DNA from: Actinomycetota bacterium
GTDB lineage: Bacteria; Actinomycetota; Acidimicrobiia; Acidimicrobiales; CADCSY01
Reading direction: 5' to 3'
Assembly: GCA_019347915.1 (NCBI GenBank)
Contig: JAHWKL010000010.1
Location: forward strand, 1 to 40,248
Length of the DNA: 40,248 nucleotides
Shown: positions 93-15,163 of the stretch, one piece after another
How positions within the stretch are numbered: position 1 is the first letter of the stretch
Layout: each line of letters begins with the position of its first letter
Notes under the pieces: model-generated
What the model saw: only the letters and a program-made list of their open reading frames with translations
Databases searched by the model: none
What the model was told of the DNA's origin: nothing
Position numbers and translations under genes: made by a program

Positions 93-363
93 TCGCCCTC
101 GTTCGCTCGCTGCGCTCGCTCCACTCGGGCGAGTTCGATCGTGCTCCGGGCGCCGGCGGAGCCGGCACCCTCCGCGCTGTTCTTTCCTGGCCGCCATCCA
201 GGAGGGGGCCGCCTTCGGCGGCGAGCGTGGCCGGCGGCATTGCGCCGGCCGGACTTTCGTGACGCTGCGGAGCCGCCAGGCGGAGCAGCCTCGGACGCTG
301 GTCCAGCTCCGTGCAACGGGCGCCGGCGGATTATCGCCGGCGAAAAGTGATCGCCGGCGAAGA
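93..363. other. Gene-free stretch with palindromes and one dispersed repeat copy
   Basis: No convincing gene lies here. The frames that stay open do so because of GC bias and translate to Arg/Pro/Ala-rich strings without domain character. The left part holds short self-complementary runs of the type GCTCGCTGCGCTCGC and GCCGCCTTCGGCGGC, also found in the repeat island at 14787-15163. The right part carries one copy of the 83-bp element that forms a tandem array at 3242-3573. The region lies between two converging genes, so a transcription-termination role for the palindromes is possible but unproven. Confidence 0.6.
263..343. repeat. Single dispersed copy of the 83-bp repeat
   Basis: This 81-base copy matches the unit of the array at 3242-3573 with two single-base deletions and a few substitutions. 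It starts CGCTGCGGAG and ends with the dyad CGCCGGCG...CGCCGGCG followed by AAAAG, as does the last unit of the array. It sits about 3 kb from the array, in another intergenic gap, so the element is dispersed as well as tandem. Confidence 0.8.
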
Positions 364-2542: not shown

Positions 2543-3241
2543 GTGGGCGACGGGACGGTCATCGACGTCGTCATCCCCGCCCGCAACGAGGCGGCCACGG
2601 TGGTGGCCAACGTCGCCGCCGCCCGCGGCTGTCGCTTCTCCCGTCAGGTCGTCGTCGTCGACGACGGCTCATCCGACGACACCGCCGAGCGGGCCGGCGC
2701 CGCCGGCGCCAGGGTCCTCCGACGCCACGGGCCGAGCGGCTCGAAGGCCCTGGCCATGGCCGCCGGCGTGGCCGCCACCGACGCCCAGGCCATCCTGTTC
2801 GTCGACGCCGACTGCACCGGTCTCACCGCTGACCATCTGGACGACATCTGCAAGCCGTTCGTCGAGGGCCGGGCCACCATGTCGATCGGCATGTTCGACT
2901 ACGGCCGCTTCTGGAACCCCGTGGTCCTGCGCTGCCCCCCGCTGAGCGGCGAGCGCATCGTTCCCCGTTGGGTGTTCGAGGCCGTGCCGCCGGACAAGCT
3001 GGCGGGATACACGATCGAGATCCGGCTGAACGAGGTGGTGTGCGAGCGTCGTCTCACGACCAGCGTGCGCACCATGGCCGGCGTCCAGCACCGGACCAAG
3101 CGGGACAAGCTCGGGGCCCGCGACGGCTTCCTCCAGACGTGGTCGATGTACAAGGCGCTGTTCTCGCAGATGAGGCCGGTGGGCGACATCCGCTGGCGGA
3201 CCTACTGGTTCTACCTCCGCGGCCTCACCATCGAGGAGTAG
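2543..3241 (+). CDS. Family 2 glycosyltransferase
   Basis: The 232-residue product is a GT-A fold glycosyltransferase. It shows 'VIPARNEAATV' at residues 10-20, the nucleotide-binding 'VDDGSSDD' at about 39-45 and a DxD-type 'VDADCTG' at about 87-93 for metal-bound NDP-sugar. The C-terminal part has a basic stretch (QHRTKRDK) and no clear membrane segment, so it is probably cytosolic. The GTG start is preceded by a GGAGGGG ribosome site. A TACCAT box at 2503-2508 may be the -10, giving a 5' UTR of roughly 28 bases. The acceptor is unknown; proximity to the debranching enzyme and the GT4 gene suggests glucan or glycolipid metabolism by inference only. Confidence 0.85.
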   Translation: MGDGTVIDVVIPARNEAATVVANVAAARGCRFSRQVVVVDDGSSDDTAERAGAAGARVLRRHGPSGSKALAMAAGVAATDAQAILFVDADCTGLTADHLDDICKPFVEGRATMSIGMFDYGRFWNPVVLRCPPLSGERIVPRWVFEAVPPDKLAGYTIEIRLNEVVCERRLTTSVRTMAGVQHRTKRDKLGARDGFLQTWSMYKALFSQMRPVGDIRWRTYWFYLRGLTIEE

Positions 3242-3573
3242 CGCTGCGGAGTCCGCCAGGCGGAGCAGCATCGGACGCTGGTGCAGCTCCGTGCCAACGG
3301 GCGCCGTCGGATCATCGCCGGGGACGCTGCGGAGTCCGCCAGGCGGAGCAGCATCGGACGCTGGTGCAGCTCCGTGCCAACGGGCGCCGTCGGATCATCG
3401 CCGGGGACGCTGCGGAGTCCGCCAGGCGGAGCAGCATCGGACGCTGGTGCAGCTCCGTGCCAACGGGCGCCGGCGGATCATCGCCGGGGACGCTGCGGAG
3501 TCCGCCAGGCGGAGCAGCATCGGACGCTGGTGCAGCTCCGTGCCAACGGGCGCCGGCGGATTATCGCCGGCGA
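3242..3573. repeat. Tandem array of four 83-bp units
   Basis: Four head-to-tail units start at 3242, 3325, 3408 and 3491, exactly 83 bases apart. Units 1 and 2 are the same where compared by eye (GCGCCGTCGG in the dyad region), unit 3 carries GCGCCGGCGG, and unit 4 ends in a perfect dyad CGCCGGCG-GATTAT-CGCCGGCG followed by AAAAG. Each unit also begins with a hairpin-forming block in which TCCGC and GCGGA surround a CAG loop inside GCTGC/GCAGC. Since 83 is not a multiple of three, the array cannot encode a repeated peptide. It starts at the base after the GT2 stop codon and ends 14 bases before the putative -10 of the next gene. Confidence 0.95.
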
Positions 3574-3587
3574 AAAGCGATTGCCGT

Positions 3588-3593
3588 TACCAT
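3588..3593 (+). promoter_or_regulatory. Putative -10 box (TACCAT) for the debranching-type gene
   Basis: TACCAT lies 9 bases before the GTG start at 3603 and just after the last 83-bp unit. The match to TANNNT is good. The -35 region would fall inside the final repeat unit, so the array may affect this promoter. Confidence 0.4.
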
Positions 3594-3602
3594 GCACAAC
3601 CC

Positions 3603-5756
3603 GTGGCTGAGCCGTGGACGTTTGCCGGGGAACCGCCTGCCGTGGGTCAGGCGGGCGCCATCGTGACGCTCGTCGAAGGATCGACGTTCTGCATCTCCGG
3701 AGGCGCCGGCGACATCGAACCGGGCCTGACCCACGGCCTGTTCTTCCGCGACACACGTTTCATCTCCGGTTTCGAGCTGCGTCTCAACGACCTTCCCCTC
3801 GAGCCGCTGTCCTCGTACGTGGCCGAGCCCTTCAGTGGCACCTTCGTGTCCCGCGCCCGGCCCCGGCCGGGGCGGGCCGACAGCACGCTCGTGGCCTTCC
3901 GGTCCCGGTACGTGGGCCGAGGCATGCGCGAGGACGTGACCGTGCGCAACTTCGGCCACGAGCCGGCGATGTGCACCGTCGAGATCACCGTCGACGTCGA
4001 CTTCGCCGATCTCTTCGAGGTCAAGGAGGGCCGCGTCGATCTGGTCGGTGAGCGCAGCCTGAGGACCGACGGCGACCGGCTCCTGTTCGGCTTCCGTCAC
4101 GGTGACGCCCGGCGGGGGACGGCGCTGGCCTTCCACGGCTTCTCGGTGATGGAGCACCACCGGGCCATGGCCGAGGTGGTGATCGAGGCCCAGGGGACGT
4201 GGAAGGGCTGCGTCGAGGTGGCGCCCGTCATCGAGGACGAGCAACTGTCCCCGCTGTACCGCTGCGGCCGACCGGTCGCCCGGGCCACCCCCAGCGAGCG
4301 GTTCCAGCGCTGGCGCCGCCAGGTGCCCACCGTGTCGTCCGACCACGCCGGGCTGGAGGCGGTGGTGGCCCGCAGCCAGGGTGATCTCGGGGCGCTGCGC
4401 ATCTTCGATCCCGACTTCCCGGAGCGGGCGGTGATCGCCGCCGGGGCGCCGTGGTTCATGACCCTGTTCGGGCGCGACTCACTGCTGACGTCGTGGATGG
4501 CGTTGCTGGTCGACCCCGAGCTGGCGCTCGGTGTGGTGCAGACGTTGGCCCGTTTCCAGGGAGAGAAGGTCGATCCCGAGACCGAGGAGGAGCCGGGCCG
4601 GATCCTGCACGAGATGCGTTTCGGCACGGCGGCGTCGCTGTCACTCGGCGGCGGGCAGATCTACTACGGAACGGCGGACGCCACCCCGCTGTTCGTGATG
4701 TTGCTGGGCGAGCTCCGACGGTGGGGGTTGGGGGCCGAGCAGGTCGACCAGCTGCTTCCCCACGTCGACCGGGCCCTGGAGTGGATCACCGAGTACGGCG
4801 ACGTCGACGGTGACGGCTTCGTCGAGTACGAGCGGTCGAGCGAGAAGGGCCTGCGCAACCAGGGCTGGAAGGATTCCTGGGACGGCGTGCGAGCGGCCGA
4901 CGGCCGGCTGGGCACGGGCCCCATCGCCCTGGCCGAGGTGCAGGGCTACACCTACGCCGCCTACGTGGCCCGGGCCCACTTCGCCCACGAGGCCGGCGAC
5001 GAGGACGTGGCCGCCACCTACCGCAAGCGCGCCGCCGAGCTGAAGACGGCGTTCAACCGTGACTTCTGGGTCGAAGATCGGGAGTGGTTCGCCCTCGGGC
5101 TCGACGGCGACAACCGCCGGCTCGATGCCCTGGCATCCAACATGGGCCACTGCCTGTGGACCGGGATCGTCGATGCTGACAAGGCGGCGGCGGTGGCCCG
5201 CCACCTCCTGTCACCGGCCATGTTCAACGGCTGGGGGATCCGCACGCTCGCCACCAACATGGTGGGCTACAACCCCATCAGCTACCACAACGGTTCGGTG
5301 TGGCCCCACGACACCGCCATCGTCACCGCCGGCCTGATGCGCTACGGCTTCGTGGAGGAGGCCCATCGGGTGGTGCTCGGGCTCATCGACGCCGCCATGG
5401 CCGTGGGCGGCCGTCTGCCCGAGCTGTTCGGGGGCCTCGACCGCAGCGAGCTGCCCATCCCGCTCGGGTACCCGGCGTCGTGCTCGCCGCAGGCGTGGGC
5501 CGCGGCCGCGCCCCTGCTGCTCCTGCGGCTGATGCTGCGGTTCGACCCGTGGCTGCCCCACGGCAAGCTGTGGCTGGCGCCGGTCGTGCCGCCGTCCATC
5601 GGTCGCCTGCGGGTCGGTCACATCCCCCTGGGCGGTGGCCGCATGGCGGTGAGCGTCGACGGCCACGACGTGGAGGTCGAGGGGCTGCCTCCGGGCGTCG
5701 AGCTGGTCAGGGAAGCTCGGAAGCCGCTGTCGGGCGAGGTGCCGCCGACGAGCTGA
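3603..5756 (+). CDS. Glycogen-debranching-type enzyme (amylo-alpha-1,6-glucosidase family)
   Basis: The 717-residue product has an N-terminal beta-rich 'glycogen debranching N-terminal' region (about residues 15-210, starting 'VTLVEGSTF…GLFFRDTRF') and a C-terminal (alpha/alpha)6 barrel. Barrel landmarks are 'FMTLFGRDSLLTSW', 'GLRNQGWKDSWDG' and 'YHNGSVWPHDTAIV', seen in bacterial homologues that hydrolyse alpha-1,6 or related glucan linkages. No signal peptide is seen, so a cytosolic role is inferred. Any start before the repeat array would have to read through non-coding repeats; GTG 3603 gives the natural N-terminus 'VAEPWTF'. Its 3' end overlaps the convergent GT4 gene by 50 bases. Confidence 0.88.
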   Translation: MAEPWTFAGEPPAVGQAGAIVTLVEGSTFCISGGAGDIEPGLTHGLFFRDTRFISGFELRLNDLPLEPLSSYVAEPFSGTFVSRARPRPGRADSTLVAFRSRYVGRGMREDVTVRNFGHEPAMCTVEITVDVDFADLFEVKEGRVDLVGERSLRTDGDRLLFGFRHGDARRGTALAFHGFSVMEHHRAMAEVVIEAQGTWKGCVEVAPVIEDEQLSPLYRCGRPVARATPSERFQRWRRQVPTVSSDHAGLEAVVARSQGDLGALRIFDPDFPERAVIAAGAPWFMTLFGRDSLLTSWMALLVDPELALGVVQTLARFQGEKVDPETEEEPGRILHEMRFGTAASLSLGGGQIYYGTADATPLFVMLLGELRRWGLGAEQVDQLLPHVDRALEWITEYGDVDGDGFVEYERSSEKGLRNQGWKDSWDGVRAADGRLGTGPIALAEVQGYTYAAYVARAHFAHEAGDEDVAATYRKRAAELKTAFNRDFWVEDREWFALGLDGDNRRLDALASNMGHCLWTGIVDADKAAAVARHLLSPAMFNGWGIRTLATNMVGYNPISYHNGSVWPHDTAIVTAGLMRYGFVEEAHRVVLGLIDAAMAVGGRLPELFGGLDRSELPIPLGYPASCSPQAWAAAAPLLLLRLMLRFDPWLPHGKLWLAPVVPPSIGRLRVGHIPLGGGRMAVSVDGHDVEVEGLPPGVELVREARKPLSGEVPPTS

Positions 5757-14786: not shown

Positions 14787-15163
14787 GCACAGGCTCGCTG
14801 CGCTCGCCGGAAAGGCAGGGTGCCGCCTTCGGCGGCGCTGTCCTCCGCTCCGTCAGGGCAAGCCTCGCTGCGCTCGGCGCCCTGGCGGGCCCGCTCGGCA
14901 TGCGCGTTGCGTTGTACGCGGTGGGTGCACCTCGTCGTCGCGAATGCTGAGCGGGCGGTTCCGCCTGCCCGTTGCTCGCCCCCAGGTGCCGCCGCCCTTG
15001 GCGGCGCAATGCGCCGTAGGCGCTGTCCGCCTTCGGCGGCGCTGTCCGCCTTCGGCGGCGCTGTCCTCCGCTCCGCCAGGGCAAGCCTCGCTGCGCTCGG
15101 CGCCCTGGCGCCGAAAATGCGCCGGAGGCGCTGCGCTTTTGCTCCGCCGAAGGCGGAGGGTGG
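14787..15163. repeat. Gene-free repeat island
   Basis: No supported gene lies in these 377 bases. A 48-base direct repeat with one mismatch occurs at 14840-14887 and 15063-15110. A 19-base unit, GCTGTCCGCCTTCGGCGGC, occurs in tandem at 15022-15040 and 15041-15059, with related sequence near 14821-14840. Many parts are self-complementary (GCCGCCTTCGGCGGC, CCTCGCTGCGCTCGG), and the right end has a large dyad around GCTCCGCCGAAGGCGGAG just beyond the serC stop. The genes on both sides converge here, so folded RNA ends or transcription termination are possible roles. Confidence 0.8.

Follow-up and report, generated by a model that had tools for sequence, protein, structure and literature searches.

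The window, as we call the whole 40,248-nt stretch of DNA analysed here, is an entire contig of a 2.70-Mb assembly (244 contigs, 86% complete), and at positions 3242-3573 it carries four nearly identical units of exactly 83 nt each, set end to end between two genes. What kind of element is this array made of, and how did it come to hold four units? Our preferred answer, to which we give a probability of about 70%, is that the units represent a non-autonomous mobile element of the REPIN or MITE kind, whose ends would be constrained by a mobiliser acting in trans, whose spacer would be free to drift, and which expanded in tandem at this site.

The array and the anatomy of its units

All four units lie on the plus strand, unit 1 at 3242-3324, unit 2 at 3325-3407, unit 3 at 3408-3490 and unit 4 at 3491-3573. 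Tandem Repeats Finder, which together with the sequence delimits them, returned period 83, 4.0 copies, 99% matches, 0 indels and a score of 637; units 1 and 2 show no difference and unit 4 departs from unit 1 at 3 of 83 positions, so that the four exact-length units of the preliminary description stand. The first base of the array is directly 3' of the TAG stop codon (3239-3241) of a glycosyltransferase family 2 gene (2543-3241, plus strand, PF00535), as had been noted, and its last base is about 30 nt upstream of the GTG (3603) of a gene for a glycogen-debranching-type enzyme (3603-5756, plus strand, GDE_N_bis and GDE_C); the array thus occupies most of the gap and not, as was thought, the whole of it. 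Just downstream of the array (window 3587-3605), about 10 nt upstream of this GTG, a TACCAT that reads TAGCAT in relatives was seen by eye and resembles the -10 box of a leaderless transcript.

A CRISPR array was rejected, as in the preliminary description, because the 83-nt units abut without unique spacers and hold the same internal segment in all four; a coding repeat was likewise rejected, as the period is indeed no multiple of three and the position is intergenic. Mycobacterial MIRU/VNTR loci consist of dispersed tandem intergenic units under 100 bp, variable in number, and by description alone they resemble the present array in layout.

Short copies of the element measure about 83-92 nt, contain several hairpins and follow one order: a nearly invariant 5' hairpin (GCTGCGGAGTCCGCCAGGCGGAGCAGC), 8 variable nt, 8 less variable nt, and a conserved 3' half (GCTCCGTGC...CGCCGGCGGATTATCGCCGGCG) that includes the terminal hairpin. 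The mean pairwise difference among paralogues is 0.007 in the 17-nt part of the 5' module, 0.584 in the 8-mer, 0.253 in the 8 nt after it and 0.007 in the following 9-nt module; copies were chosen with at most one mismatch per module, so the module conservation in these differences and in the entropies is partly selected. The two conserved ends would probably be the recognition sites of the mobilising enzyme, and the 8 nt between the halves, variable in sequence and constant in length, would serve as a spacer that drifts and in doing so marks lineages of copies.

In the array the 8-nt variable segment ATCGGACG (3270-3277 in unit 1, plus strand) is common to all four units, which also have an identical 16-nt segment found at no other locus; the four units therefore most likely arose by duplication in place and not by four insertions. 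Unit 4 is the sole array unit whose 3' hairpin is intact as in dispersed copies (CGCCGGCG-GATTAT-CGCCGGCG, 3551-3572, plus strand, conserved in the alignment of 39 of 42 reference copies, three long-form hits being left out), and in units 1-3 a shortened terminal hairpin is followed by the next unit without a gap. Because the units have the 16-nt segment and the junction in common and just one of them has an intact terminal hairpin, we propose that one inserted copy became four units by replication slippage or unequal recombination. An effect on the two flanking genes, if there is any, would be secondary, through spacing or readthrough.

Unit 4 and a dispersed fifth copy at 261-350 have in common the 3' dyad CGCCGGCGGATTATCGCCGGCG followed by AAAAG, which had been taken together as the defined end of the element. 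Most other copies keep the dyad but not the AAAAG, hence the defined end is the dyad.

A dispersed family with traceable copies

The fifth copy, placed earlier at 263-343, is indeed present (261-350, plus strand, 95% identical by BLAST). A genome-wide count had been named beforehand as a test, with a lack of other genomic copies speaking against mobility; BLAST of one unit against the 2.70-Mb genome returned 81 matches at E ≤ 10 (best E 1.3e-42), 45 of which, as counted from the table, span at least 63 of the 92 query bases, and this is far above what chance would give. The fetched loci of this genome (G000) held 45 short copies at 31 loci, with at least two short copies at 10 of the 31, and the four-unit array is the longest among them. 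Sequence comparison identifies the array as one member of a dispersed, extragenic family of palindromes that has been expanded in tandem at this site.

More G+C-rich palindromes (CGCTCGCTGCGCTCGCTC, GCCGCCTTCGGCGGCG and GCCGGCGGCATTGCGCCGGC) lie directly 5' of the dispersed copy, at window 100-262, and similar stretches also precede other copies (L007, L031). In addition to the short copies there is a long form, in which the 5' module and 3' hairpin are retained but separated by about 96 nt of different palindromes; a search with the core of this form returned 35 genomic matches at E ≤ 1e-5. Similarity matches place a relative of this palindromic core at 14790-14888 and a partial one at 15046-15105, both on the plus strand. 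Two intergenic 65-nt palindromic copies related to the long-form core, 98% identical, were observed within window 14814-15110.

The variable 8-mers make it possible to trace copies. Excluding copies with the 17-nt segment and keeping one copy per locus and 8-mer (34 of 45), we found five pairs of unlinked loci with the same 8-mer, compared to 0.39 expected and reached in none of 2000 shuffles; sharing thus exceeds chance, which fits a descent of some copies from others. In the four orthologous pairs where both congeners have a short element, 3 of 32 8-mer positions differ (0, 1, 2 and 0), whereas paralogues are 58% different, indicating that the 8-mer is inherited rather than hypermutable. The possibility that the 8-mer is an antisense or a copy of its local flanks was rejected, since complementarity was found at 23 of 34 loci compared to 19.7 expected, and 67 of 500 shuffles were as high.

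Sister families and a possible role as RNA

Within the bacterial family, matches at E ≤ 1e-6 were confined, among 12 genomes, to the window's own genome, its congener G009 and, as two partial matches, G005. A search of the GTDB species collection, which may omit the records closest to the window's own, located the exact 24-nt pattern of the 5' module in 15 stretches, all of them from three MAGs, 0711_bin2, YX2bin34 (Acidimicrobiales) and 0707_bin13. YX2bin34 (G012) harbours a sister family that has the same 5' module followed by 8 variable nt, whereas its second half is different, with the hairpins CGGCGAAGCCG or CCGCGAAGCGG or GGGCGAAGCCC, and GCTCCGCC-GGA-GGCGGAGC plus variants; the fetched stretches contain 69 pattern matches, a few of which are due to chance. 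Two G012 copies, in L098 (1501-1690) and L142 (2438-2620), are mosaics, with other palindromic modules in place of the second half, as though an exchange of modules had occurred.

Covariance models extended the search to 148 genomes of the order. The window-type model matched in 2, both in the window's genus, and the G012-type model in 8, including the other-family genomes G019 (20 matches) and G030 (6). By eye, the copies of these last two have a palindrome whose last bases are AGC; 8 variable nt come next, then a short linker containing GGAT or AGAT and, in most copies, a GCGAAGC hairpin, so that in sister families the 8-nt slot keeps its place and its fixed length. In a sample of the phylum 2 of 296 genomes matched, the window's own and G432; the latter has a single near-window-type copy (L214, around 1501-1583) located 218-300 nt from a contig end, in a genome that has the phylum alone in common with ours, and this copy may reflect horizontal transfer or contamination. 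The phage and plasmid collections that were searched gave no match, and a phage or plasmid origin was rejected on this ground.

The explanation that survives best next to a mobile element, and which we nevertheless consider unlikely, is that a structured RNA has been selected at many transcripts, whether as processing or stability hairpins or as small RNAs, the 8-mer being an exposed loop or seed. It draws on the tight placement of copies between genes and above all on compensatory changes in the G012 sister family: in an alignment of 48 of 51 copies (one duplicate place and two further copies of loci already included were left out), 91.6% of positions in the structure are paired and 46 two-sided changes are seen, with a covariation score of 0.135 compared to 0.048 for shuffled alignments (0 of 500 as high) and at most 0.058 for slid structures. 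Against this, the window's own set shows a two-sided change in only 2 of 19 pairs, two such changes across 39 copies, and template switching within palindromes can also produce compensatory changes. Nor does the complementarity of the 8-mer to its flanks, no higher than in shuffles, favour a seed.

Gene context, obtained with a home-made codon-usage gene finder, bears on the same explanation. Both neighbours were called for 31 of 39 clusters in G000 (one cluster, L051:700, is probably a chance pattern match) and for 36 of 40 in G012; in the former, 18 were co-directional (8 along, 10 against), 7 convergent and 6 divergent, and in the latter the figures were 23 (13 along, 10 against), 10 and 3. 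Copies thus occur about equally often in both orientations relative to their neighbours, and this lack of strand bias argues against a strand-specific RNA role. Rfam had no family in the window except two tRNAs and no match in ten copy-bearing loci, and a known RNA family was rejected accordingly; an intrinsic terminator (a G+C-rich hairpin and a T run) was rejected as well, with none on either strand in 3100-3800. Strand context and terminator scan together gave no sign of a strand-specific regulator. The other suggestion of the preliminary description, a regulatory spacer of variable copy number, may apply in so far as a different array has three elements in one congener and one in the other (L052/L074).

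Gain, loss and a proposed mobilisation

Orthologous sites can be compared between the window's genome and G009. Some sites are alike: the elements of L036/L099 are identical, the window copy at 261-350 and its counterpart in L075 are the same element with few differences, and L045/L082 has the long form in both congeners. At other sites the two differ, with three elements vs one (L052/L074), long vs short form (L050/L081), a full element in G009 of which the 3' hairpin alone is left in G000 (L067/L180), an element that is inverted between the same genes while keeping the 8-mer CTCGGAGG in both (L010/L063), and a site that holds an element in G000 but none in G009 (L041/L208). In other genera the site of L008 is empty in both genomes that could be aligned (G005 and G004) and that of L040 is empty in G005. 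At the array site itself the gaps between the matched gene parts are element-free in the sister genera, about 88 nt in G005 and about 42 nt in G006, and the G009 contig starts 48 nt past the position of the G000 array end. The empty sites are not base-exact, as the flanks differ too, and local DNA loss could mimic some of them; target-site duplications or excised intermediates were not seen at the sites compared.

The best-known REP-like repeats are those of Proteobacteria, which occur along with RAYT transposases. We found no match to PF01797 (Y1/RAYT) in G000, G009 (= G013), G012 or G005 (= G014), all of them drafts, by a search that was positive in 5 of 14 known control genomes; mobilisation by a RAYT was rejected on this result from the four copy-bearing genomes, with an absence that, at 86-87% completeness of G000 and G009, falls short of proof.

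This missing transposase is what would be expected if the repeats were an old fixed set multiplied and deleted solely by homologous recombination and slippage, without transposition, and arrays, exchange of forms and inversion at shared sites could all result from recombination between copies. Such a set would not readily account for a copy where the congener has none (L041/L208), nor for 8-mers common to unlinked loci beyond chance, and we regard it as quite improbable, behind the structured RNA.

The mobile REP-like element, locally expanded, that the preliminary description had put forward is borne out by the dispersed extragenic copies, the filled and empty sites, the differences in copy number and the shared 16-nt segment. 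Membership in the classical REPs is not: a search for their GT(A/G)G head and for a RAYT-type transposase encoded in the genome found neither. The element is intergenic, present in high copy number and has a GC-rich imperfect palindrome that can form a stem-loop, and the consensus before the 5' palindrome is ACGC in place of a conserved GT(A/G)G. As with REPINs, in the excerpted account of Bertels and Rainey (2011; PMC3116915), it is short, extragenic and dispersed; its ends are conserved, the spacer between them is less so but constant in length, and compensatory changes and tandem arrays occur. Unlike in that account, its ends are not inverted copies of one REP around a spacer, the halves pairing in the RNAalifold consensus over 7 bp only (GCGGAGC/GCTCCGT), and it comes without a detected RAYT. 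The CGTC-tagged REPs, as presented in part of Di Nocera et al. (2013; PMC3733652), are palindromic and extragenic too and "apparently lack a dedicated transposase", but there a single stem of 8-9 bp carries the tag, whereas here several hairpins are found and there is no conserved tag (18 of 45 copies have GACG). With the BIMEs and classical RAYT-associated REPs, as outlined in the excerpt of Nunvar et al. (2010; PMC2817692), it has in common a mosaic of palindromic modules in intergenic space and differs in the head and the RAYT already mentioned. We conclude that the element works like a REPIN but is not to be filed as one. The open-licence literature on REP-like repeats in Actinobacteria and Acidimicrobiales yielded no description of the present family.

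Families in at least four genomes have the 8-nt slot in the same position, although they share little other sequence. It is conceivable, as an outside chance more doubtful than either explanation above, that these families form a superfamily of short extragenic elements spanning the order Acidimicrobiales and moved by a non-RAYT enzyme, in which the slot would be a functional address or recombination core and not a passive spacer. Least probable of all is a reading of the 8-mer as the middle part of a site for a site-specific recombinase, flanked by imperfect inverted arms (GCGGAGCAGC-N8-GCTGGTCCAG). In its favour, lox-type sites have an 8-bp spacer, the 8-nt length is fixed in sister families, the arms match by eye as inverted repeats at 8 of 10 consensus positions, and one element has changed orientation at its site between congeners. 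Against it, G012 lacks the right arm, G000 copies conserve it poorly, and that inversion is the single one seen.

Taken as a mobile element, the family is one of uncultivated Actinomycetota that is dynamic between congeners with no RAYT detected; its variable 8-nt slot makes lineages of copies traceable, and it offers a well-defined case in which to ask how REPs that have no tag or no RAYT are mobilised.

Five G009 contigs (C127, C159, C189, C269 and C297) end at or near element sites. The element repeats appear to break short-read assemblies, and we offer them as an explanation of some of the contig breaks in assemblies of this kind.
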